DNA from: Ignavibacterium sp.
GTDB taxonomy: Bacteria; Bacteroidota; Ignavibacteria; Ignavibacteriales; Ignavibacteriaceae
Reading direction: 5' to 3'
NCBI GenBank assembly: GCA_025056745.1
Contig: JANWVQ010000155.1
Span: 1 to 58,409 of the forward strand
Length of the DNA: 58,409 nt
Shown here: in pieces, positions 2 through 39,545 of the stretch
Position numbering within the stretch: the stretch's first letter is position 1
Layout: each line of letters begins with the position of its first letter
Position numbers and translations under genes: made by a program
The notes under the pieces: model-generated
The model's input: the letters and a program-made list of their open reading frames with translations, nothing else
The model's database searches: none
What the model was told of the DNA's origin: nothing

Positions 2-2359
2 AATACGATAAGTGATGGAATTAGCTCTGAACAAATTAAAAAAAGCAATGATGCCTCCACAAGTGAAGCATTAAGAAGAATTCCAGGAGTTACATTACTT
101 GATAACAAATTTATTTTTGTTAGAGGAACGAGCGAAAGATATAGTAATGCTCAACTTAATAATGCTAGCCTTTCAAGTACAGAACCAGAGAAAAAATCCT
201 TTGCTTTTGATTTGATACCGACCAATTTGGTTAGTAATACAGTTGTTGTGAAATCTTTCACGCCAGATATTGCCGGAGATTTTGCTGGTGGAACTGTACA
301 AGTTAATACAATAGATTTTCCTGATAAACTAAGAATAAATTTAAGCTATTCATCATCAATTACTGAAAAAACTACTTTTAAGGACTTTAATACTTATAAA
401 GGTGGAGGAAGTTTTTGGGGGTTTGGAAATGGTGAGAGAAAACTTCCGGATGGTTTCCCTTCAAATTTAACAAGTGAAAATTACTCTCGAGAAGAAATCA
501 ATTCTTTTGCAAGAAGCTTTAAGAATATTTGGGCGCCTTCAACCAAGAAAGCACCTAATAATAATAATTTCTCCCTTTCAATTGGGGATATGTTTACAAT
601 CTTTGATCATCAAATTGGTTTTGTAACTGCTTTTTCGTTTAGAAATAGCTATAAAAATTCTACAGTAGAAAGAAACGAATATGAATCCTCTGGTGCACCA
701 AGATTTTCATTCAAAGGCACTCAATCAACTTATTCAACGATGATGGGCGGATTATTCAATTTATCTTATAAAATTTCTGAATTACATAAAATTAGTTCTA
801 AAAATACTTACAATCACACTAGTGATGATGAAGTTTCTGTCCTAAATGGTGCAAATTTTTCAGATGCAGGAAAGGACCAAATTCAATATGCATTGAGATT
901 TGTCGAAAGAGAAGTTCTATCAAGTCAGTTAACTGGAGAACATTCTTTTCCAACATTATACAATTTAAAATTAGAGTGGAAGGGATTTTATTCTAATTCT
1001 ACTAGAGATGAACCCGATTATAGAAGAGTGATATATGGAAGAGACTTAGGAACAAATGACCCATTTTCTGCAATCTTAGGATTTCAACCAAACTTGAAAA
1101 ATGGTGGAAGGTTTTTCTCACATCTATTTGATAAAACTAAAGGATTTTCAATAGACTTATCGTTAAATGCTCCATACGCAAAATACAAATTCGGCTCCTA
1201 TTTGGAGAAAAAAGACAGAAACTTTTCTTCAAGATTAATAAGTGTAATAATTAATGCGCCCGGAAATGGATTTACAGATTTTAGCCTATTATATCTACCT
1301 CTGGATAAAATTTTCAGTCCAGAGAATTTCAGAAGAAACGGTTTTTCGATGGATGAATATCAAAATGGTACGAATAATTATAACGCCAAACACGAAATAG
1401 TAGCTGCTTATGGTATGATTGAAATGCCATTAAGAATTTTAGGTGAAGATGTTACCATTATATCTGGAGCACGTTTTGAGAATTCATTGCAACAAATAAA
1501 TTCTTTTGATCTAAGTGGTAGAATTCCACTTTCTTTTCAGTTGAAAAAAGTTGATATACTACCTTCTTTTCATTTAATTCATAAAATAACAGAAATAACC
1601 AATATAAGATTATCATATTCACAAACTGTAAATAGGCCAGAGCTTCGTGAATTAGCACCATTTTCTTATTATGATTTTGCGACTCAAACATCATTGACAG
1701 GAAATCCAAATTTAAAAAGAGCTTTAGTCAGAAATTATGACTTTAGAGTAGAGACCTTCCCTGGTTTAGGCGAATTGCTTTCTTTCAGTGCATTTTATAA
1801 ATCAATTTCAGATGCTATTGAAAAAGTGGTAGTTAGTGGAGTCGCATTAGGTTCAGAGCGAACATTCACTAATTCAGATTTTGCAAAGATTTATGGATTT
1901 GAATTAGAAGCAAGATTAAATTTAGACTTTTTAGGTGGATACTTTAAGAATTTTTCATTGAATGGAAATTATAGTTGGATAAAATCAATTGTAGATGTAA
2001 AAGGGACTGAAACAACAATACCAAGAAACAAAAGACCACTTCAAGGACAATCTCCTTACGTAGTTAATTTGGGATTTTTCTTCACAGAGCCAAGTTTAGG
2101 AACTTCATTGAATATTATGTATAACAGAATCGGTGAAAGAATTGTTGAGGTAGCTACTGCTTATGATGAGGACGTTATCGAACAACCAAGAGATTTAATT
2201 GATTTAACGATTACGCAACCTATATTATCAAATTTTGAAATAAAGTTTGGAGTTAAAGATTTATTATCGAAAGACCAAGTTTTTACACAAGGTGATAAAA
2301 GGTCTCGTGTAAATTCAGCAAGTAGAAGTTTTTCTTTAGGAATTTCTTATAAATTCTAA
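2..2359 (+). CDS. TonB-dependent outer-membrane receptor, N-terminus missing
   Basis: The reading frame is open from the first bases of the window, so the true start lies upstream. The first methionine-like codon inside the frame (position 212) is not the start, because the residues before it are a normal plug domain (SEALRRIPGV, then VRGTSERY). The plug is followed by a long run of alternating beta-strand segments and a C-terminal strand ending in Phe (SFSLGISYKF), as in 22-strand TonB-dependent barrels. The family imports siderophores, vitamins, glycans or other nutrients using ExbBD-TonB energy; the substrate cannot be read from sequence. A secreted beta-helix protein follows 71 bases downstream, and a PstS-like protein lies further on, so uptake of a phosphate-containing compound is possible but only inferred. 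Confidence 0.93.
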   Translation, partial: NTISDGISSEQIKKSNDASTSEALRRIPGVTLLDNKFIFVRGTSERYSNAQLNNASLSSTEPEKKSFAFDLIPTNLVSNTVVVKSFTPDIAGDFAGGTVQVNTIDFPDKLRINLSYSSSITEKTTFKDFNTYKGGGSFWGFGNGERKLPDGFPSNLTSENYSREEINSFARSFKNIWAPSTKKAPNNNNFSLSIGDMFTIFDHQIGFVTAFSFRNSYKNSTVERNEYESSGAPRFSFKGTQSTYSTMMGGLFNLSYKISELHKISSKNTYNHTSDDEVSVLNGANFSDAGKDQIQYALRFVEREVLSSQLTGEHSFPTLYNLKLEWKGFYSNSTRDEPDYRRVIYGRDLGTNDPFSAILGFQPNLKNGGRFFSHLFDKTKGFSIDLSLNAPYAKYKFGSYLEKKDRNFSSRLISVIINAPGNGFTDFSLLYLPLDKIFSPENFRRNGFSMDEYQNGTNNYNAKHEIVAAYGMIEMPLRILGEDVTIISGARFENSLQQINSFDLSGRIPLSFQLKKVDILPSFHLIHKITEITNIRLSYSQTVNRPELRELAPFSYYDFATQTSLTGNPNLKRALVRNYDFRVETFPGLGELLSFSAFYKSISDAIEKVVVSGVALGSERTFTNSDFAKIYGFELEARLNLDFLGGYFKNFSLNGNYSWIKSIVDVKGTETTIPRNKRPLQGQSPYVVNLGFFFTEPSLGTSLNIMYNRIGERIVEVATAYDEDVIEQPRDLIDLTITQPILSNFEIKFGVKDLLSKDQVFTQGDKRSRVNSASRSFSLGISYKF

Positions 2360-27652: not shown

Positions 27653-28207
27653 ATGTCGGATAAGCAGAAAGATTTTGAACTAATTGAAAAATTCTTAAAT
27701 GGTGATGAATCTGCTTTCAATCTTCTTGTGAAAAGACATCAGGAAAAAATATATATGGTAGCTAGAAGGATGCTTGGAAATCATTTAGATGCTGATGAGG
27801 TTGTTCAGGAGGTTTTATTAGTTTTATACAAGAAACTCAATACCTTTAAATTTGAATCAGCTTTTTCAACTTGGCTATACAGAATTACAATGACTAGAAG
27901 TATTAATTTTCTAAAGAAACGTGCGATAAAAAATTTATTGTCAATTTTTGATTTGAAAAAAGAAAGATCTTATAATCAAAATCCAGCAGAAATTATTGAA
28001 GGAAAAGATCAGTTTGAATTAGTAGAAAAACTTTTGAAAAAACTTCCGCCAAAACAAAGAGAAGTATTTATTTTGAAGAATTTTGAAAACTTAAAGTATG
28101 AAGAAATAAGCGAAATAACCGGAAAATCTATTGGTACATTAAAAGCAAATTATTTTCACTCAGTAAATAAACTAAAAGAACTTTTGGAAAAGCATTATGA
28201 AAATTAA
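27653..28207 (+). CDS. ECF RNA polymerase sigma factor (RpoE-like)
   Basis: 184 residues. Region 2 is residues ~20-90: FNLLVKRHQEKIYMVARRML, LDADEVVQEVLLVLYKKL and FSTWLYRITMTRSINFLKK. Region 4 is ~125-180: LPPKQREVFILKNFENLKY, EEISEITGKSIGTLKANYFHSV (helix-turn-helix). No extra C-terminal domain. Its stop overlaps the next gene (membrane anti-sigma candidate) by 11 bases, the classic arrangement for cotranslated sigma/anti-sigma pairs. It likely responds to an envelope stress reported by the Spy-like proteins on both sides, and probably activates its own gene through the promoter at 27566-27595. Confidence 0.93.
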   Translation: MSDKQKDFELIEKFLNGDESAFNLLVKRHQEKIYMVARRMLGNHLDADEVVQEVLLVLYKKLNTFKFESAFSTWLYRITMTRSINFLKKRAIKNLLSIFDLKKERSYNQNPAEIIEGKDQFELVEKLLKKLPPKQREVFILKNFENLKYEEISEITGKSIGTLKANYFHSVNKLKELLEKHYEN

Positions 28208-28757
28208 AAATCAAAAAATAATAGATTTCTTTGAGGGCAATCTCTCTGAAGAAGAGAAAACTGATCTCCTTAAAGAAGTTAATTCTAATTTAGAGCTCAA
28301 AAAAGAATTTGAGAGTTTTAAGAAACTTTATTCATCGATAGATGGTTCTAAAAATGTTAAAATTAGTGATGATTACTATGAATCAATCTTGTTGAGATTT
28401 CGAAATAGAAATCATAAAGTAAGCTTTTTATTAAAACCTGTATTTGTTACGATTTCAGTTATTCTTTTAACTTCATCTTTAATTTTATTTTTATTGACTA
28501 GGACATCTCAAGATGACTTTAACCAAAATAATGATTTTGTTGAGATTAATGGTTACGACTTTGAAAACGTCGAACAGATGTATAAGCTAGTTAATGAAGA
28601 TAAAATAATTGATTTATTATTTGATGAACTCATTAATAAAGAGGAAAACATTATCGCTGTTAAAAAGTATCTACAAATTGAAGATAGTTATTATGAAATT
28701 CCAGAATCCGATGCAGAAGATATCTATCAAGAATTATTAAATAAAAAAATTCTTTGA
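28197..28757 (+). CDS. Probable transmembrane anti-sigma factor
   Basis: 186 residues. The cytoplasmic N-terminal part (1-75) is charged and helical, starting IIDFFEGNLSEEEKTDLLKE, similar to the zinc-finger-less anti-sigma domains of Bacteroidota. One membrane helix at about 82-102 (VFVTISVILLTSSLILFLL) is followed by an acidic periplasmic tail of ~80 residues. No Cys/His zinc motif. Role is inferred from the 11-base overlap with the sigma gene and from topology: it would hold the sigma factor at the membrane until a periplasmic signal acts on the tail. Next comes a second Spy-like gene after seven bases. Confidence 0.75.
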   Translation: MKIKNQKIIDFFEGNLSEEEKTDLLKEVNSNLELKKEFESFKKLYSSIDGSKNVKISDDYYESILLRFRNRNHKVSFLLKPVFVTISVILLTSSLILFLLTRTSQDDFNQNNDFVEINGYDFENVEQMYKLVNEDKIIDLLFDELINKEENIIAVKKYLQIEDSYYEIPESDAEDIYQELLNKKIL

Positions 28758-28764
28758 GGTTAAA

Positions 28765-29229
28765 ATGAAATTATTATTGATTGTTTTTATTTCACTAATA
28801 ATATTTAATCAAACCTATCCACAGGATGGCAGGCGAGGCGATTGGCCAAGAATGCATAGAGTTGAGCAACTGGAAAGAGTAAAACTCATAGAATCTTTAA
28901 ATCTTTCAGAGGAACAAACATTAAGATTCTTTGCAAGAAGAAACGAACATAGAAAAGAAATTGAGAGTATCAACAAGAAAATTGATGAAATAATGGAAGA
29001 AATGTATAAAATTATTAACTCCGGAGAAGCAAAAGAATCAGCATTGAAAAAAATGAATGAAGAAATTCTTTCCTTAAGAGAGAAAATTGAATCAAAAAGA
29101 AAGCAGTTTATTCTTTCATTAAATGATATTTTAACAACAGAGCAAATTAGTAAACTACTTTTATTTGAAAGAAGATTTCACGAAGAAATTAGAGAATTAA
29201 TTATTAACAGAAGAAGACCCCCGAGATAA
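28765..29229 (+). CDS. Spy/CnrX-like periplasmic sensor or chaperone
   Basis: 154 residues. Signal peptide cut before Gln (QTYP-QDGRR). The mature protein is a long helical hairpin rich in Glu, Lys and Arg, with the degenerate LTxxQ element LNLSEEQTLRFFARR and a second at LTTEQISKLLLF. It is the third gene of the sigma/anti-sigma operon, as CnrX is in the CnrYXH metal-response system. It probably senses misfolded protein or metal in the periplasm and feeds back on the anti-sigma factor. It has no clear metal site: few His and no Cys remain after the signal peptide, which argues for a protein-folding cue. Confidence 0.8.
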   Translation: MKLLLIVFISLIIFNQTYPQDGRRGDWPRMHRVEQLERVKLIESLNLSEEQTLRFFARRNEHRKEIESINKKIDEIMEEMYKIINSGEAKESALKKMNEEILSLREKIESKRKQFILSLNDILTTEQISKLLLFERRFHEEIRELIINRRRPPR

Positions 29230-30200: not shown

Positions 30201-30219
30201 TTCATCAAAAATTTAATTA

Positions 30220-30260
30220 AAGTCTGCTCTAAAGTTATTTTTGGAGCAGACTTTTTTTTT
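30220..30260 (+). terminator. Strong rho-independent terminator
   Basis: Perfect 10-base stem AAGTCTGCTC / GAGCAGACTT (30220-30229 with 30244-30253), 14-base loop, then a run of T to 30260. Separates the TPR gene from the Ton/Tol-like operon. Confidence 0.95.
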
Positions 30261-30329: not shown

Positions 30330-33296
30330 ATGATAAGGATAATTTTAGTTTTAATACTCATTAATAACATTTTGTTTTCTCAAGTTACCTCAGACCTTTA
30401 TTCAGAAGCATTGAAAGCCTACAATGATGGGCAATTCGCTGAAGCATCAGTTTTGTTTTCAGAATTCTTCAAAGGATACAACATTGTTGATGAGAAGTAT
30501 GCATCAGCAAAATATTATCTTGCAAAATCTTTACTAAAATTAAATCGCTTTGATGAGGCTGCAATAATATTCTCTTTTTTATCAGATAATTTTCATTGGA
30601 CAAATTACAGAAGTCATTCTTTATTTGAGTTAGGTCTGATTTATTACAATTTAAAAGATTACAACAACTCTCGTTCAAGAATGGCTCAATTATTAGATGA
30701 TTATCCCGAAAGTGAATATGTTGGAAGTGCACTTTATTGGATTGGAGAATCTTATGCTGCGGAAGGCAATATTCAAGATGCGATACTTTTTTTTGAAAAT
30801 GCTATCAATGATAAAAGAAGAAATAAATTTTTAGATTACTCTATCTACTCTCTTGCAAATTTGTATGAAAAAATCGGTGATTATCAAAGTGCTGTAGATT
30901 ATTACGATAGATTATTGACTTTTCATCCTAATTCTGAATTAATAACAAGTGCTCAAATAAGGATCGGTTTTTGCTATTTCAAGTTGAAAGATTATCAAAC
31001 TGCCATAATCGAATTAAATAATCCAACGCTTTTGAATATAGATGAAAAATCTAAAATTGAAGTTCTTTACATTTTAGCTCATTCATACTTTCGAATTGAG
31101 GATTATAAAAATGCTGAAACAAAATTCTCCGAAATAATTGAAAATTATCCCTCATCTGAATTTTATAGAGAGGCACTCTATGGTTTAGGATGGAGTTACT
31201 TTCAACAGAAAAAATACAATGATGCATTCAAAGTCTTTGACTTTGCTTCAAATGGTAATGATTCAATTGCAGTTAAGTCATTTTATTGGAAAGGTGAATC
31301 AAAAAGATATTCAGGAAAAGATGATGAGGCATTGCAAATTTTCAAATCGTTTCTTGAAAAATATCCTAATGAAAGATTATCTCAAGATGCTCAGTTTCAA
31401 ATTGGTATGATTTATCTTGCCAAAGGTAATACTGAATTAGCAAGTAGATTTTTACTGTCTGCAAATAACATTGAAAACAATGAAACAAGAGCTAAAGCTT
31501 TAACTTCTCTCGGTGAGATAGAATTAGAAAAATCATCTTTCAAGAACGCAATAAATTATTTCACAGAAGCTTTGAACATTAAATCCATTTCAAATGAAAC
31601 AAAATTACGCGCCCTACTTGGATTAGCAATTGGAAAATTTTGGACAAAAGACTACAATTCATCTTTAGCTTATTTGATTGAAATTGAAAAATCAAACCGA
31701 AACTTCGAAACCCAAAGAGTGAATTACTATTATGCAGAAAATTATTTTTCATTAGGAAATTACAGAGAAGCAATAAACAGATTCGATAGAGCCTTTGGGA
31801 ATGATGATAGAATTAATGAATTAAGTCTATATGGAAAGGCTTATAGTCATTTTAATATCGGAGATTATGAAAATTCTGCTGAGGCATTTTCTGAATTTGT
31901 TAAACAATTTAGAAATAGTAAATTCTTTAACGATGCTTATTTGAGACTTGCTGATAGTTACTTCGGTAGTAAAAATTTTCAACAAGCTAGTAAAATTTAT
32001 GAGCAAATTTTCAGAATTGGTGGCTCAAAGCTGAATAATGCTTATACTCGTTATCAATACGCTGAAGCATTATATAAATCAGGAAATCCTTCTGAAGCAA
32101 TAAAAGAATATGAAAAAATTATAGAACAATTTCCAAACTCAGAATATGCTCAGGCTTCATTATTTACTGTTGGATGGATCTTTTTTCAAAATGCTCAGTA
32201 TACAGATGCAATAAATAAATATAAAGAGATGTTTGTTAGATATCCGAAATCTGAATTTTTACCAAATGCATTGAATTCAATTGGCGATTCATATTTTAAT
32301 ATGGCTTTGTATGACTCATCTATTTTTTACTATGAAAGGGTTATAAATGAATTTCCAAATTCACCTTATGTTTTCGATGCAGTTAATGGAATTCAATTAA
32401 GTTACGTTGCTCAAGGAAGAATTCTTGACGCAGTTAATTATATAGACAATTTCGTTTTGAAATATCCTTTATTAAATTTTTCAGATCAGATCTTCTTCAA
32501 AAAAGGTGAAATATTCTATAGTGAAGGAATGTATTCTGAGTCTAAAGATGCTTTTAAGAATTTTATCGTTAGATATCCCAAAAGCAAACTAGTAGCTGAT
32601 GCTTATTATTGGATTGGAAAAAGTGCACAAAATCTAAATCAAAATGAAGAAGCAATAATAAATTTTTATAATGTATTCAATCTTTATAAAACATCCGAAT
32701 TTTCTGCTTCATCCATACTTGAAATAGGAGCAATTTATAGGAAGACTGGACAGTATCAAAAAGCATTTGAGGTTTATAATACTGGCATTAAAGAGTTACC
32801 TAATTCAATTAGGTTACCTGAAATTATGTTCAATAAATCTTTAACCTTACTTGAAATGAATAAATTAGATGAAGCTTATAATTCATTTAATGAAATTATT
32901 TCAAACTTTCCAAAAAGTATTTTTTCAGATAAATCAAGACTCGAAATAGGAATAATTGAAATCTCATTGAAAAAATATGATAAAGCCAATGAGATTCTTG
33001 GTAATTTATCTAAAAAAAGAACAGATGATATTGGAGCCAAAGCACAATATTATATTGGAGTTTCATTATTTGAACAAAAGAAATTTTCACAAGCAATTGA
33101 AGAATTAAATAAAGTTAGAAACTTTTTTTCAAGATATGAAGAATGGGTTATAAAATCTATTTTTCTAATAGGTGATTGCTATGCAGGGTTAAAAGATAAG
33201 AGAAAAGCAGAGGAAATGTATAGATTGATTATTACAAAGTATAAAGGGACTCAATATGCAAAACAAGCTCAAGACAAGATAAGGAAATTAAAATGA
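30330..33296 (+). CDS. Giant periplasmic TPR protein of the Ton/Tol-like operon
   Basis: 988 residues. Signal peptide cut before Gln (ILFS-QVTS), then more than twenty tetratricopeptide-like helix pairs with the YbgF/BamD-type consensus (for example YPESEYVGSALYWIGESYAA, FPNSEYAQASLFTVGWIFF and YPKSKLVADAYYWIGKSAQN). Many units are spaced ~36-37 residues apart, which gives a long superhelix. YbgF-like TPR proteins bind TolA and are encoded next to tol-pal genes; here exbBD-tonB homologues follow in the same operon. It may therefore be an extended periplasmic scaffold for this motor. It overlaps the next gene by four bases (ATGA). Confidence 0.85.
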   Translation: MIRIILVLILINNILFSQVTSDLYSEALKAYNDGQFAEASVLFSEFFKGYNIVDEKYASAKYYLAKSLLKLNRFDEAAIIFSFLSDNFHWTNYRSHSLFELGLIYYNLKDYNNSRSRMAQLLDDYPESEYVGSALYWIGESYAAEGNIQDAILFFENAINDKRRNKFLDYSIYSLANLYEKIGDYQSAVDYYDRLLTFHPNSELITSAQIRIGFCYFKLKDYQTAIIELNNPTLLNIDEKSKIEVLYILAHSYFRIEDYKNAETKFSEIIENYPSSEFYREALYGLGWSYFQQKKYNDAFKVFDFASNGNDSIAVKSFYWKGESKRYSGKDDEALQIFKSFLEKYPNERLSQDAQFQIGMIYLAKGNTELASRFLLSANNIENNETRAKALTSLGEIELEKSSFKNAINYFTEALNIKSISNETKLRALLGLAIGKFWTKDYNSSLAYLIEIEKSNRNFETQRVNYYYAENYFSLGNYREAINRFDRAFGNDDRINELSLYGKAYSHFNIGDYENSAEAFSEFVKQFRNSKFFNDAYLRLADSYFGSKNFQQASKIYEQIFRIGGSKLNNAYTRYQYAEALYKSGNPSEAIKEYEKIIEQFPNSEYAQASLFTVGWIFFQNAQYTDAINKYKEMFVRYPKSEFLPNALNSIGDSYFNMALYDSSIFYYERVINEFPNSPYVFDAVNGIQLSYVAQGRILDAVNYIDNFVLKYPLLNFSDQIFFKKGEIFYSEGMYSESKDAFKNFIVRYPKSKLVADAYYWIGKSAQNLNQNEEAIINFYNVFNLYKTSEFSASSILEIGAIYRKTGQYQKAFEVYNTGIKELPNSIRLPEIMFNKSLTLLEMNKLDEAYNSFNEIISNFPKSIFSDKSRLEIGIIEISLKKYDKANEILGNLSKKRTDDIGAKAQYYIGVSLFEQKKFSQAIEELNKVRNFFSRYEEWVIKSIFLIGDCYAGLKDKRKAEEMYRLIITKYKGTQYAKQAQDKIRKLK

Positions 33297-34888
33297 AGTC
33301 ATTAAAAGTTTTCATTATTTGTTTGTTGTTTTTTATTGATTTATTATCTCAGGAAGAACCTAAACAATCAACTGCAGTGGAATTACCTGATTTTATTATT
33401 ACAGGAAAAGATATAGTTAGAATAAAAAAGTCAGATAAGCAAACTCCTTTTTTCGTTGGTGCTCTAACTGAAAGTTTTATCCTTCCAAAATTCTCTCCTG
33501 AAGAAATTCCGACAAAAGAATTAATGGTTCCAATTAGAGAAGATCTAAAGATTTTTAATAACAATGAATTCTATAAAGGTTTTATTAGTGGTTCTTTAGG
33601 ATTTTATTCTTTACCTGATTTAAATGCTAATTATTCAACTCCTATTGAAAATGGAATTGTGCAAGCAAAATTTAGTGGAATTTACAATAGACCTTATTTA
33701 GAGAACACAGATAATTACAAAGTTTCTTTAGGAGGTAACTTAAATTATTGGTCTGATATCAATTCATCATTTTTACCTGGGACAAAATTCAAACTGAATG
33801 CAGATTTATCTACTAATGGTTATAAATTTTTTGGTTCTAATAATCCAACAATAAAAAGAAGTATTAATAATCTTTATGCTGACTTTGATATTTCTAATGA
33901 ATACAATCCATCATTTTTATTCAAAATACTTGGTAGTAATGATTTTATCTCTCTTTCTGGCGAAAACTTTAAAGCAAACCTGTTAGATCTTTCTTTATAC
34001 TCTCTAATCAGATTTTCATTTGTTAACATTGGCTTATATTCTAATTTTAAGAGTTCTTTCATAAATAATGATACATCAAACCATCCTGAAAGAAATTATG
34101 TGGTACTCAGACCAACGGCTGGATTCCAATTTACAGAATTAGTTAAAGGTTCATTTGGTTTTACAATTTCTCAAACCAAAGAAGATAAGTTCATAATGCC
34201 CTATGCAGAACTCGCTTTAAAGTTATCTCGTGGATTGGTTTTATTTGGTCAATTTTATCCTTCTACGTATTTTGTAACTCCATCTGATCTATTAAAAATA
34301 AATCCTTATTTATTTGTAAATAAGTCATCAAATTTTTTAATGAAAAAAAATCTTCAATACTCTATAGAAGTAAAGTTTGAAAATCGATTGGACTTCGAGG
34401 TAATTGGTGGATTTAAATATTTTTCATCTGATTCAGCATATTACTTTTACGAATCAGAAAGGGGAAAATATTCTATAGCATTTTCAGATGTAAAAAGTAT
34501 TACTCCTTTTGTTAATCTAAATATTTTCCCTAGTTCTTTTGGGTATTTCTTTGGAGCTTTAGAATTAAATGCTTCACAAAACGATACTGGCCAGACCATA
34601 CCATATTCACCTTCACTTAAATTAAACGCAGAATATGGATATACTTTCAATAACATTTTAACTACTGCTATTAAGTTATCTTATATTAGAAATTTCTACA
34701 CAGATATTATTAACTCGAAAAAAATTGAAAATTACATTGATTTGGGATTGTCACTATCATACAAATTTGATAATAGATTTGACATACAAGTAAGATTTGA
34801 AAACCTGATAAATAACAAAAATTATCTATGGAATAATTATCAAGAGAAACCTTTTGACATTATTCTTGGTGTAAAATATAAACTTTGA
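33293..34888 (+). CDS. Outer-membrane beta-barrel protein
   Basis: 531 residues. Signal peptide cut before Gln (LLS-QEEP), then a short segment AVELPDFIITGKDIVRIKK that resembles the start of TonB-linked outer-membrane proteins. From ~residue 90 on it is a run of alternating amphipathic strands with aromatic girdles (for example FISGSLGFYSLPDLNANYST, KVSLGGNLNYW) and ends FDIILGVKYKL, a beta-signal. No plug domain is recognised, so a TonB receptor is not supported; a porin-like or assembly barrel fits better. Coupled to the TPR gene upstream (4-base overlap) and 35 bases from the HU-SPOR gene, so part of the same envelope machine. Function unknown. Confidence 0.75.
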   Translation: MKSLKVFIICLLFFIDLLSQEEPKQSTAVELPDFIITGKDIVRIKKSDKQTPFFVGALTESFILPKFSPEEIPTKELMVPIREDLKIFNNNEFYKGFISGSLGFYSLPDLNANYSTPIENGIVQAKFSGIYNRPYLENTDNYKVSLGGNLNYWSDINSSFLPGTKFKLNADLSTNGYKFFGSNNPTIKRSINNLYADFDISNEYNPSFLFKILGSNDFISLSGENFKANLLDLSLYSLIRFSFVNIGLYSNFKSSFINNDTSNHPERNYVVLRPTAGFQFTELVKGSFGFTISQTKEDKFIMPYAELALKLSRGLVLFGQFYPSTYFVTPSDLLKINPYLFVNKSSNFLMKKNLQYSIEVKFENRLDFEVIGGFKYFSSDSAYYFYESERGKYSIAFSDVKSITPFVNLNIFPSSFGYFFGALELNASQNDTGQTIPYSPSLKLNAEYGYTFNNILTTAIKLSYIRNFYTDIINSKKIENYIDLGLSLSYKFDNRFDIQVRFENLINNKNYLWNNYQEKPFDIILGVKYKL

Positions 34889-34923
34889 TATTTATTTTAA
34901 CATAAAGATTTTGGATTAATTTG

Positions 34924-37002
34924 ATGAACAGAAATCAGATTGAAGAAAAACTAACTAAAATTTTAGGTGGACTCACTACAGATAAGCAAATTATCATAGA
35001 TAATTTTGTATCGGAACTCTATGAAATACTAAAACCTGGTCAACAAATTAAAATTGATGATTTAGGTTACTTCACAAAAATTAGCTATAGACTAATCAAT
35101 TCTAAACAATTTAAAGAAGATTCTTCATCAGAAAACGATTTTATATTAATCTTCTCTGAAAAAGAAAATATTGATACAATTGAAGAAGATCAAATATTTT
35201 GGAAACCAATTTACTTTGAACCTGATTTTAGTAGTAAAAATCGTTTACTCTCTCTTAGTATTGGAAAAGATTTTCTCTCTGAGAAGCTAATTAATTCAGG
35301 ACAGATAATACCAGCTTCTGTTGATGAATTATTAAATCTGCTCGATTCGAAAATTCAAAAGTTATTATCAACTTCAACAGTTTTTGATAAGTTCTCAGAA
35401 GAAATTCCTTGTCTTAAGATTGAATCAGAAAAATTAGAAAGAAATTTCACCGTTTCAACTAATTTAACTTCAAACTTGAACCAAGATTCAATCAAAACAA
35501 TATCAGAATTAAGTGACTCAACATCCGACCAAGAAATTGCATTGGATATACCTAAAGACTTTCTTAATGAATTTGATGAATTAAAAATAGATGATAACAA
35601 AATAGAAGAAGAACAGTCTTTTCTTAAAATATCAGACACCACTTCAACTTCAGATGAAGAAATTTCTTATGATACTTTAAATCAAATTGAATATCAACCA
35701 AGCGAATTTGATTTATTAAAAGATGAAAATTCTTTTCTTGAAGAAGATAAATCAATTTCAGAAATTCCAGAGGAAAGGGAGCAGCTAAATTTTTCAAACA
35801 CTTTTGAAAAAATAGAATCTCAAATTGATGAGGATTTATCAAATTCAGAGTCTTCAAACTTAAATTTCGAAGAAGAGGAAGAAATCATTGAAGACGATAT
35901 TTCTTGGGATAAGATTATTTCAGAAATAAAAATTGATGAAGATGATTTTAATGTCGAAGAGATAATAAAAGATGAACAGTCTCTACCAAATCAAGAAGAT
36001 GACAAGTCTGATTTTCAAAGTAGCTCTGAGATAATTTCCGAAATACAAGAACCAATAAATGAACCAGAAATTTTTGAAAAATCTGATGATGAATCTAAAA
36101 ATGAAATAATTGATAATATAATTACAGAGATCAAAAGTGAGGAAGAGTCAGATCTGATAGCTGAAATTGAAAACGAGACCTCAAATAAAGAGGATTTCGT
36201 AGATCAAATTTTAGATGAGACTATTGAAAACTTTGATAAAGAAGAGAACTCTGAAATTACTGAAGATGAAGAGATTTTTAATTCTCAAGATGAAATTGTT
36301 GATGAAAGTGAATTAGAAAAAGTTGAAGAAGAATTATTACAAAAATCAGAAGTTACTGAATCAATTCAAGAAGAAAAGAAAACAAATTCCGCAAAAATTA
36401 TCATTCTAGCTTCAGTACTGATTCTCATAATATCAGCAGCATTGGTTTATTATTTTTATCCACAATACTTTGAAATAATTAAACCAAAAGAAATAGTTAT
36501 AACTCCTTCAATAAATGATAAAGAAGCAGTTAGAATCGAGAGAGACTTTTTAATTCCAATTACATATCCATATCCACCTGCTGAAATTCAAAATGAAAGC
36601 CTATTATTAAACAATTTGAATAAAGATACTATCACAAAAATCGAAACAAAAACTTTATCGAGTTCGTCTGAAATAAAATCAGTTGAAGAGAAAAAAAATG
36701 TTCCATCAATTCAAGAAGTTGAAAAGAAAGATTTAAGAAATCAAACAACAGAACGAAGTGAAAAAATCTCAGAGACGATATCAATAGTAAATGGTGTAAT
36801 AATAGTGCAAGTTGCTTCATTCAAAAGTGAAGTAATAGCTAATAGGGAAGTAGAAAAATTAAAATCAAAAGGTTATTCTGCTTACGTTGAAAAAGCAGAC
36901 ATTCCCAATAGAGGGAGTTGGTATAGAATAAAAGTAAGAGGGTTTAAGTCAGTCGAAGAAGGTAAAATTTTTCAGTCAAAGTACAACAAAGGAGAAATAT
37001 GA
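34924..37002 (+). CDS. HU-domain / acidic linker / transmembrane / SPOR fusion protein
   Basis: 692 residues from the ATG at 34924 (a TTG codon just before it is unneeded). Residues ~1-65 look like an HU/CCDC81-type DNA-binding fold (IIDNFVSELYEILKPGQQIK, IDDLGYFTKI). Residues ~110-485 are extremely acidic, rich in Glu, Asp and Ser, and probably disordered. A single membrane helix spans ~491-514. The C-terminal ~65 residues (from ~624) are a SPOR domain (VIIVQVASFKSEVIANREVE, RGSWYRIKVRGF), which binds denuded peptidoglycan at division sites. Orientation would put the HU domain in the cytoplasm and SPOR in the periplasm. It overlaps exbB by four bases. HU plus SPOR proteins are known in Bacteroidota, but the function is unproven. 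Confidence 0.85.
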   Translation: MNRNQIEEKLTKILGGLTTDKQIIIDNFVSELYEILKPGQQIKIDDLGYFTKISYRLINSKQFKEDSSSENDFILIFSEKENIDTIEEDQIFWKPIYFEPDFSSKNRLLSLSIGKDFLSEKLINSGQIIPASVDELLNLLDSKIQKLLSTSTVFDKFSEEIPCLKIESEKLERNFTVSTNLTSNLNQDSIKTISELSDSTSDQEIALDIPKDFLNEFDELKIDDNKIEEEQSFLKISDTTSTSDEEISYDTLNQIEYQPSEFDLLKDENSFLEEDKSISEIPEEREQLNFSNTFEKIESQIDEDLSNSESSNLNFEEEEEIIEDDISWDKIISEIKIDEDDFNVEEIIKDEQSLPNQEDDKSDFQSSSEIISEIQEPINEPEIFEKSDDESKNEIIDNIITEIKSEEESDLIAEIENETSNKEDFVDQILDETIENFDKEENSEITEDEEIFNSQDEIVDESELEKVEEELLQKSEVTESIQEEKKTNSAKIIILASVLILIISAALVYYFYPQYFEIIKPKEIVITPSINDKEAVRIERDFLIPITYPYPPAEIQNESLLLNNLNKDTITKIETKTLSSSSEIKSVEEKKNVPSIQEVEKKDLRNQTTERSEKISETISIVNGVIIVQVASFKSEVIANREVEKLKSKGYSAYVEKADIPNRGSWYRIKVRGFKSVEEGKIFQSKYNKGEI

Positions 37003-37649
37003 ACTTATTGGAAATTTTCCTAAAAGGTGGATTCATAATGTGGTTAATCCTTATTTGTTCAATTATTGGATTAGCTGTAGTGATAGATCGATTTATTGTA
37101 TTACGAAAAGCTAAAATAAACATTCCTGCTTTTCTTGTAAGAATTAGAGGATATATTCAGCGAAGAGATATTTCTGGCGCAATAAGTTATTGTATGGAAG
37201 AAAAATCACCAGTTGCAAACGTAGTTAGAAAAGGATTGAAAAAATATAAGTATGGCCACGATCGTGTAAAAGAAGCAATTGAAAATGCTGGTAATCAAGA
37301 AATATCTAAATTGGAAAAAGGATTAACAGTTTTAGCAACTGTCGCAGGTATTGCTCCTTTATTAGGTTTTCTAGGAACAGTTACTGGTATGATACAAGCA
37401 TTTATGAGAATTGAGGATTTGGCTGGTGCCGCTAATCCAAGTGATCTCGCTGGAGGAATTTGGGAAGCTCTTGTTACAACTGCTTTTGGTTTGATAGTGG
37501 GAATTCCCGCATTAGCTTTTTATAATTACTTCTTAAGCGCTATTAAAAGATTAGTGGGCGAAATTGAAATTGTTGCAAATGATGTTGTAGAATTTATTCA
37601 AGATGAAAATTCATCAGTAAATGAAGTAGATGACGAAATAGAACTTTAA
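36999..37649 (+). CDS. ExbB/TolQ/MotA proton channel subunit
   Basis: 216 residues. Three membrane helices: ~12-30 (FIMWLILICSIIGLAVVIDR), ~105-125 within VLATVAGIAPLLGFLGTVTGM, and ~150-175 within ALVTTAFGLIVGIPALAFY. The polar residues and the Gly-rich TVAGIAPLLGFLGTVTGMI motif are the family signature. With ExbD/TolR it forms the pentameric proton-driven motor that moves TonB or TolA. The start has AAAGGAG seven bases before and overlaps the HU-SPOR stop (ATGA), so translation is coupled. ExbB versus TolQ cannot be told from sequence alone. Confidence 0.93.
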   Translation: MNLLEIFLKGGFIMWLILICSIIGLAVVIDRFIVLRKAKINIPAFLVRIRGYIQRRDISGAISYCMEEKSPVANVVRKGLKKYKYGHDRVKEAIENAGNQEISKLEKGLTVLATVAGIAPLLGFLGTVTGMIQAFMRIEDLAGAANPSDLAGGIWEALVTTAFGLIVGIPALAFYNYFLSAIKRLVGEIEIVANDVVEFIQDENSSVNEVDDEIEL

Positions 37650-37660
37650 TTGAGAGAAAT

Positions 37661-38065
37661 ATGAAATTTAAAACATCAAAAGAACCTTTGAGTATTTTTT
37701 CTTATTCATCTCTTACTGACATTGTGATGTTGCTTTTAATTTTCTTTTTATTGACTTCACAATTCGTTATTCAAACAGGAGTAAAAGTAAAACTACCCGG
37801 TTCAAAAACTAATGAACCAGCTCAGACTTCAAGACTAATAGTAACCATAACTCAAGCTGGTGCGGTTTACGCTGGTCAAGATGAGGTAAGTATTGATCTT
37901 CTTCCCTCAAAATTATCTGAGATGAAAGCAAACATACAAGATGATAACTTAATCATTCGGGCTGACAAATCAGTTCCGATAGAGTTAGTCATAAAAGTAA
38001 TTGATGCAGCAAAATTGGTTAATTTATCAAAATTCACAATAGAAACTGAAAAAGAAACTTTGTGA
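37661..38065 (+). CDS. ExbD/TolR biopolymer transport protein
   Basis: 134 residues. One N-terminal membrane helix (SLTDIVMLLLIFFLLTSQFV, residues ~17-36) with the essential Asp in LTDIV, followed by a small periplasmic domain (VKVKLPGS..., DDNLIIRADKSVPIELVIKV). This is the standard ExbD/TolR layout and size. The Asp carries the proton flow through the ExbB pore. Spaced 11 bases after exbB and one base before the tonB-like gene. Confidence 0.93.
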   Translation: MKFKTSKEPLSIFSYSSLTDIVMLLLIFFLLTSQFVIQTGVKVKLPGSKTNEPAQTSRLIVTITQAGAVYAGQDEVSIDLLPSKLSEMKANIQDDNLIIRADKSVPIELVIKVIDAAKLVNLSKFTIETEKETL

Positions 38066-38066
38066 A

Positions 38067-38771
38067 ATGAGATTGACAAACAAAAAAATAAATAATTTAT
38101 CATACTTGATATCTTTTGCAGCTCATCTACTATTATTGCTTTTTTTGTGGCTCATTAAATTCTCATTGGACTACAAACAAAATGAATTTATAGAATTATC
38201 ATTTGGAAATTCAGGACAAACTGGCTCCTCTGGTGCTATCGGTGATTTATTAAATAAAACCGAAGAGAATGCAAAACCTGTTGAAGAATTATTACAGCAG
38301 AATAAAAATCAGGAAATTAAGGATATTGATTTAGCAAAGGCAAAATCATTTGACGAAACAAATACAATTTTACCATCTGAAAAAGCTAAAGAAAACAAAA
38401 AGGAAAAAGGGAGTGAAAAGAATATAAAAGAAAACTCAAATTTAAACACAAAAGGACAGGGTAATCTTACAGATGGAAAGGGAAGTTTGGGGTTCGATAT
38501 AGATTGGGGGGGAATGGGGACAAGGAAAATCTATTCTTACATTCTTCCAGAATATCCTGAGGGAGTTCAAAAAGAAATAGATATCAAATTAAGATTCTCT
38601 ATTAAACCAGATGGTACAGTTGGATCAGTAACTCTTTTAACAAAAGCTGATACAAGATTAGAGCAAGCGGCTATAAATTCACTTTGGCAATGGAGATTCG
38701 AGCCATTACCTCAAAATGCTAAACAAGTTAATCAAACTGCTATTATTGTCTTTCCTTACCGTTTGAATTAA
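38067..38771 (+). CDS. TonB/TolA-family energy transducer
   Basis: 234 residues. An N-terminal helix (~12-33, LISFAAHLLLLLFLWLIK, with the Ser-x3-His of TonB proteins) is followed by a long flexible region rich in Lys, Glu, Gly and Asn (~60-150), then a TonB C-terminal domain at ~160-234 (ILPEYPEGVQKEIDIKLRFS, AAINSLWQWRFEPLPQNAKQ). It transmits motor force to an outer-membrane partner; the barrel at 33293-34888 and the giant TPR protein are candidates. Its last 29 bases overlap the end of a convergent minus-strand gene. TonB type is favoured over TolA because of the C-terminal domain. Confidence 0.9.
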   Translation: MRLTNKKINNLSYLISFAAHLLLLLFLWLIKFSLDYKQNEFIELSFGNSGQTGSSGAIGDLLNKTEENAKPVEELLQQNKNQEIKDIDLAKAKSFDETNTILPSEKAKENKKEKGSEKNIKENSNLNTKGQGNLTDGKGSLGFDIDWGGMGTRKIYSYILPEYPEGVQKEIDIKLRFSIKPDGTVGSVTLLTKADTRLEQAAINSLWQWRFEPLPQNAKQVNQTAIIVFPYRLN

Positions 38772-39042
38772 AATCTTCTTTGTAATAATATTTATAGAAA
38801 AAATACTCAGTTATTGAAAGGAAAATTAATGATAATGAATCTCTGTTTAATTCTAAACTGAATCCCTCAGGTTCTATAAAAATTTTTAATATCATTGACC
38901 AAATTGACCAGCCGATAGTGAAAAGAATAATAATAAGACTAACATTTAACAAAGCATTAACAATGTTTTCTTCTTGCCACTTTTTAGTGAAAATGTAAAG
39001 TATAAAAAAAATATGTCCGGCAAAAATTAAACCTGAAATCAT
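38743..39042 (-). CDS. Small membrane protein, unknown
   Basis: 99 residues with two membrane helices, ~2-18 (ISGLIFAGHIFFILYIF) and ~32-55 (NVSLIIILFTIGWSIWSMIL), then a charged Tyr/Lys-rich tail. No family recognised. Its start overlaps the stop of the next upstream gene by four bases (ATGA-type), so it is cotranslated with the 168-residue membrane protein, and its end overlaps the convergent tonB-like gene by 29 bases. Coupling and a continuous frame support it as real. Confidence 0.7.
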   Translation of the reverse strand: MISGLIFAGHIFFILYIFTKKWQEENIVNALLNVSLIIILFTIGWSIWSMILKIFIEPEGFSLELNRDSLSLIFLSITEYFFYKYYYKEDFNSNGKERQ

Positions 39043-39545
39043 AAATCAATTCTTTCAAGTTTTTTATTTAATAATCCCATTCCAACTATTCCACCAATTA
39101 TTCCCCAAAATACATTCGTTATAAAGTTTGATATGAATAATATGAAAGTATAAAACAAAGAAAAGCCATTATCTTTTATCTCCTGAGAGATGGATCTCAT
39201 TAATGCTAATGGCTCATCAGCAATTTTTCCTAAGTTTAATTCTTTAATTAGAATCTCTGATTGAGGTAGAGCTTCAACAAAATCATTAGTTCTTGTTGTG
39301 AATGTTATAATTATATCAAATCCGACAAAAAATAATGTTATGAAAAATCCAGTCAAAAATCCAAAATATATTGCTTTCGATAAAGTTATTTTTTCTAAAT
39401 TCCTATTTACTCTTATGTCTAGTAATAACGCGATTATAGTTGCTAACGGAACGAATAAGCAGCAACTAAAAGCTTTAATAACTGGAACAACAGATAAAAC
39501 CGCGGCTCCAAATCCTGAAATAACACTTGGTAAAATTTTTTTCAT
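39039..39545 (-). CDS. Membrane protein, DUF4199-like
   Basis: 168 residues, four membrane helices: ~8-25, 33-42, 60-82 and 135-160. Gly-rich ends (VISGFGAAVLSVVP, NVFWGIIGGIVGMGLL) suggest two-fold packing. A family such as DUF4199 is a possibility but is not certain. It is transcribed with a DUF2085 protein upstream (gap of two bases) and a small membrane protein downstream, all from the beta-propeller end. No function can be given. Confidence 0.7.
   Translation of the reverse strand: MKKILPSVISGFGAAVLSVVPVIKAFSCCLFVPLATIIALLLDIRVNRNLEKITLSKAIYFGFLTGFFITLFFVGFDIIITFTTRTNDFVEALPQSEILIKELNLGKIADEPLALMRSISQEIKDNGFSLFYTFILFISNFITNVFWGIIGGIVGMGLLNKKLERIDL

Follow-up and report, generated by a model that had tools for sequence, protein, structure and literature searches.

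Bacteroidota have no evident Tol-Pal system, which raises the question of how their outer membrane is held in place and constricted. A six-gene operon bears on it; the operon lies in the window, the whole 58,409-nucleotide stretch of Ignavibacterium sp. DNA analyzed here. No tol-pal loci have been reported in Bacteroidetes, and PorE has been proposed as a tether between the outer membrane and peptidoglycan (PMC12204202). The operon provides a concrete and genetically tractable candidate for the missing Tol-Pal role. PorE is also a candidate for it, but is a single lipoprotein with an OmpA-like domain and has no motor operon (PMC12204202).

Positions 30330-38771 hold six densely packed open reading frames, all on the forward strand, with intergenic distances of -4, +35, -4, +11 and +1 bp in the 5' to 3' direction. 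The first gene (30330-33296) encodes a giant TPR protein of 988 aa that carries a signal peptide without a lipobox and 15 stretches matching Pfam TPR_6, and the second (33293-34888) encodes an outer-membrane barrel of 531 aa. The third (34924-37002) encodes an HU-like/TM/SPOR protein, hereafter HU-SPOR, of 692 aa counted from the ATG used here, where the list of open reading frames has a TTG one codon earlier. Then follow an ExbB/TolQ-type proton-channel subunit (36999-37649, 216 aa, MotA_ExbB E=2e-36), an ExbD/TolR-type subunit with its transmembrane aspartate present (37661-38065, 134 aa, ExbD E=7e-27) and a dedicated TonB (38067-38771, 234 aa, TonB_C E=4e-10). A strong intrinsic terminator on the same strand (30219-30254), consisting of a 16-bp stem and a T run, lies between an upstream gene for a 252-aa TPR protein and the operon; it ends the upstream gene, and the operon thus begins at the giant TPR gene. 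The coupling of six genes claimed in a preliminary description of this DNA is borne out by these positions, the Pfam domains and the tight spacing. Likewise supported is its portrayal of a proton-driven ExbB-ExbD-TonB operon equipped with a membrane SPOR protein, with the giant TPR protein as the periplasmic and the barrel as the outer-membrane component.

The barrel matches no Pfam family, Plug included; its nature was read from structure prediction and profile searches. An AlphaFold2 (AF2) model built from 30 sequences (pLDDT 82.6) contains 22 strands by count, with low confidence for residues 19-91. Foldseek searches with the barrel model alone returned, among the matches listed, TonB-dependent transporters (TBDTs) throughout, BtuB (1nqe) being best with E=1.2e-14, and the sequence profile matched only TBDT barrels in the PDB (E=6e-12). 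In the model, the signal peptide and the first strand are only some 75 residues apart, and these are of low confidence. As modeled, the barrel is of TBDT type without a plug domain. Having lost the plug and apparently kept a TonB of its own, such a TBDT barrel would have moved away from import, in the direction of mechanical work or export.

Inspection of the barrel N-terminus reveals what this TonB may contact. Shortly after the signal peptide lies the invariant sequence VELPDFVITG(K), the most conserved part of the N-terminus, which in the window reads VELPDFIITGK (33374-33406, forward strand, barrel residues about 28-39) and resembles a TonB box. Were it the TonB box of the operon's machinery, the motif would be expected to disappear where TonB disappears. 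Motif and TonB are both missing from the locus in G037 (L058), in G107 and G285 of a single genus (L143, L200) and in G204 (L223), and a recognizable motif is present in every barrel of the class or order whose N-terminus is complete and whose locus or genome contains a TonB. A regular expression missed four of 62 TonB-bearing loci, three of which carry the motif by eye (L141, L145, L151), the fourth being a truncated reading frame (L043). Run over whole genomes, a profile of the operon TonB gave one full match in each tested genome that bears TonB; it had no match in G037 or G204, and in G107 and G285 nothing beyond weak generic ones (24-26 bits). Three further genomes keep the motif with no TonB downstream (G385, G093, G212), and there the TonB lies on another contig or further upstream. 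The three independent losses, few as they are, all point the same way with no counterexample, and support a predicted coupling between the dedicated TonB and the barrel. G037 retains 14 plugged TBDTs and four TonB_C matches and has nevertheless lost the motif, so the box seems to read the operon TonB.

These losses also bear on whether the locus is an ordinary nutrient-uptake Ton system that stands beside TPR and SPOR genes by chance. The ExbB, ExbD and TonB proteins are canonical, and the genome contains 19 Plug matches. Against this, three other TonB_C matches in the genome fit the Pfam model better (61-79 bits versus 43), a second ExbB-ExbD-ExbD motor is present (L182, 7376-10079), and the operon TonB is lost together with the barrel motif rather than with TBDTs. 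We regard a chance association as quite improbable. The operon shares with Ton/TBDT systems ExbB, ExbD, the TonB C-terminal domain, a 22-strand TBDT barrel and, by prediction, the TonB-box-like motif; it differs in its plugless barrel, dedicated TonB and fixed TPR and SPOR partners. The second motor is followed by a conserved set of genes for proteins of about 160, 173, 780 and 496 aa, whose order is kept across L182-L185, and a plugged TonB-dependent receptor occupies the start of the window (20-2359, Plug match 20-292).

Residues expected of a working motor are conserved. All 54 ExbD copies checked (seven of them by eye) retain the transmembrane aspartate, S16 and H20 of TonB are invariant in 29 orthologues, and structures of E. 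coli TonB are matched by the TonB profile. The operon ExbB and ExbD do match the equivalog models of tolQ and tolR, at scores well short of the cut-offs (116 of 221 and 50 of 127 bits, respectively). Seven loci of family f1 lack ExbB-ExbD and retain TonB, and L043 has ExbB without ExbD. Most of these genomes encode a stand-alone ExbB-ExbD pair elsewhere, usually with a TonB-like gene, so that the motor can perhaps be supplied in trans.

To what extent this arrangement is shared was evaluated from single proteins and from whole loci. With HU-SPOR as the query, matches were obtained in 43 of 59 relatives, and a scan with the TPR protein was confined essentially to Ignavibacteriales (Ignavibacterium, Melioribacter, Stygiobacter), plus one weak match. 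The order TPR-barrel-HU/SPOR-ExbB-ExbD-TonB recurs in the loci fetched from the same family and order, so that the six-gene order is conserved in Ignavibacteriales. A barrel profile matched 301 of 395 genomes sampled across the phylum, some weak matches being ordinary transporters; those in families f26 and f24 look like plugged TBDTs and were set aside. We judged 103 barrel loci to be true (36 from the order, 33 from other families of the class and 34 from the rest of the phylum), and as they were picked from profile matches, their counts describe a sample rather than the phylum. Of these 103 barrel genes, 96 are preceded by a TPR gene and 86 are followed by one for a SPOR protein, while ExbB, ExbD and TonB fall within the locus in 55, 54 and 74, respectively, with detection sensitivity dropping outside the class. 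The shared gene order far exceeds chance expectation across Ignavibacteriales and partly across the phylum, and the best explanation is an ancient operon ancestral to Bacteroidota. The machine is not universal, since several families outside the class, f30 and f34-f36 among them, have TPR and barrel genes with no SPOR or motor gene close by, and only ordinary TBDTs were seen in f26 and f24. SPOR similarity is weak in f37, and two phylum-wide TPR alignments contained no stretch conserved enough to scan named genomes. Several genomes outside the class have a FolC-like gene after the operon (L154, L155, L162, L165); dedD, a SPOR gene of E. coli, likewise adjoins folC.

This distribution speaks to a motor for surface motility or adhesion of the Glt/Agl type, systems that likewise combine an ExbB/D-like motor with TonB-like proteins, TPR proteins and barrels. 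A weak C-terminal match to AgmX/PglI fits such a role, which is nonetheless the most improbable of those considered: the operon is phylum-wide and adjoins apparent housekeeping genes outside the class, and Glt models score well under cut-off.

The third gene is the origin of a different proposal, advanced in the preliminary description, that the operon links the nucleoid to the septum, the HU-like domain holding DNA while SPOR holds the septal wall. The protein consists of an HU-like domain (residues ~1-98), an acidic linker (~100-490), one transmembrane helix (~490-508), a periplasmic linker and a SPOR domain (~626-687; 40.3 bits against a curated cut-off of 21, E=4e-10), in agreement with the single helix and SPOR domain described at the outset. 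The long acidic stretch is also real, although the figure of ~375 acidic residues requires correction: the linker spans ~390 residues, of which 118 are D or E, for a net charge of -86. A transmembrane helix with a periplasmic SPOR domain is likewise found in FtsN, DamX and DedD, from which the window protein differs by its cytoplasmic HU-like domain and its place within a TonB motor operon.

The DNA-binding-like character of the N-terminus holds only in part. Similarity to HU is present at the level of the family, with 28 of 29 orthologues matching Bac_DNA_binding (best 1e-9), even though the single sequence matches weakly (E=0.98 for the full protein, 0.027 for the domain alone). The domain is not basic, however: its net charge averages -0.8 over 29 orthologues, and five real HUs of the same genomes range from +8 to +16. 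In whole-genome searches only the first 55 of the 90 positions in the HU profile align, and the DNA-gripping GRNPxTG arm is lacking, the arm region being variable or missing across orthologues. Foldseek and VIA found no significant match for the model of the domain; several HU chains reached Z ~2, tied with unrelated folds. In the other families of the class, a SPOR protein was detected in 28 of the 33 loci and an HU-like domain in three. As most other families of the class thus keep a TM-SPOR protein without HU, and the domain is near neutral and lacks the arms, DNA binding is unlikely to be its conserved function, and a dimerization or docking module appears more likely than a DNA clamp. The three loci with the domain (L143, L200, L223) belong to the TonB-less lineages G107, G285 and G204, whereas the TonB-bearing families have TM-SPOR without HU; this restriction could reflect phylogeny or a functional trade-off.

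Separation of HU-SPOR from the motor genes also occurs in some relatives, which goes part of the way towards refuting the nucleoid proposal on its own terms. Eight of the 36 loci of the order have HU-SPOR but lack ExbB, seven of these keeping TonB, and in G037, G107 and G285 the protein has no adjoining motor or TonB gene. Second copies in relatives (L068-L071, L055, L056, L059) have no HU domain and match through SPOR only.

Counterparts from Bacteroidia offer the nucleoid proposal its other support. Assigned by Pfam domain types and kinship labels, they are HU-CCDC81 proteins with SPOR (Pfam HU-CCDC81_bac_1/2) and share with the window protein the operon slot, an HU-like N-terminus, one transmembrane helix and a C-terminal SPOR domain; the window protein differs in having one HU-like domain, scores below the HU-CCDC81 cut-offs and a very long acidic linker. 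HU-CCDC81_bac domain 2 matches six of 29 HU-SPOR orthologues below cut-off (best E=0.0045). Outside the class, the third gene of L165 matches HU-CCDC81_bac_2 (E=4e-18) and SPOR (5e-6), those of L159 and L162 are HU-CCDC81-like with no scored SPOR, and some further loci encode a single HU-like domain with SPOR. The HU-SPOR idea is therefore not new in outline, as these proteins occupy the same operon slot, and Burroughs et al. reportedly predicted in 2017 that HU-CCDC81 proteins of bacteroidetes act in chromosome partition. Given the charge, the long linker of net charge -86, the partial HU match, the missing arms and the failure to detect HU in 30 of the 33 other class loci, a nucleoid-to-septum link is improbable.

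What the genomes lack bears on a function at the septum. TolB_N was matched in none of 26 genomes, that of the window included, and no Pal exceeded the cut-off in these 26, which agrees with the absence of tol-pal loci reported for Bacteroidetes (PMC12204202); OmpA-domain proteins occur outside the operon, and their counts, like those of the Pal profile, are too generic to reveal a Pal beyond this cut-off test. The control genome, Bacteroides ihuae, has a TolB_N match, which is at odds with both the zero of 26 and the reported absence from Bacteroidetes. With neither TolB nor Pal above cut-off, septal PMF-driven constriction of the outer membrane becomes the best guess. The functions of Tol-Pal may, however, be covered by fusions of TolB and Pal, of which PorE is an example.

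Computed gene order, folds, the missing plug, conserved motor residues, the joint loss of motif and TonB and the sub-threshold Tol-Pal scores together form the base of the model. Proton flow through ExbB-ExbD would power the dedicated TonB, which would grip the TonB-box-like motif on the free N-terminus of the plugless barrel, for which the giant TPR protein presumably serves as cap or scaffold. SPOR domains recognize the denuded glycan found at the septum (PMC6895207), and through such binding the SPOR membrane protein could recruit the motor to the division site, where the resulting force would draw the outer membrane inward during constriction, in the manner of Tol-Pal with other outer-membrane parts. 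We infer septal localization, complex formation, force on the outer membrane and a role in constriction, and put the probability of a proton-powered trans-envelope machine, in which TonB pulls a plugless barrel at the septum, at roughly 0.5. That this machine, with its dedicated TonB, plugless TBDT barrel and giant TPR protein, replaces Tol-Pal across Bacteroidota is a more tentative proposition. In common with Tol-Pal, the operon has a PMF motor of the TolQ/R-ExbB/D family, a TonB/TolA-like transducer and a periplasmic TPR protein with CpoB-like repeats, and it is likewise proposed to act on the outer membrane at the septum; it differs in having no TolB or Pal over cut-off, an integral plugless barrel as partner and a SPOR protein. 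No description of the complete machine was found in open-licence literature.

The main rival is TonB-powered export or outer-membrane biogenesis, in which the TPR superhelix would hand a substrate (a surface lipoprotein, a polysaccharide or another) to a TonB-gated barrel. The plugless 22-strand barrel, being wide, could equally be an export channel, the barrel and TPR genes are spread over the phylum with mostly one true copy per genome, and Slam, BcsC and PgaA are exporters that pair TPRs with a barrel. Yet no fixed synthase or substrate gene lies alongside, and the SPOR protein is third in most loci. The BcsC model scores far below cut-off, and the Slam TPR match is a generic repeat match. 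CpoB, SprE, PrsT and MamA models all fall below cut-off against the operon proteins, while the short tol_pal_ybgF and BamD models exceed theirs via repeats and were discounted. We consider export possible, though unlikely, and prefer the septal PMF-driven pull as the reading that would use all parts of the operon.

The surroundings of the operon add two minor observations. Upstream (27653-29229) lie genes for an RpoE-type sigma factor, a probable anti-sigma factor and a Spy/LTXXQ-like protein, which amount to an envelope-stress module; several relatives retain the sigma factor as well. Downstream, a gene for a DUF4199-like membrane protein on the reverse strand (39039-39545) is convergent with the 3' end of the operon.
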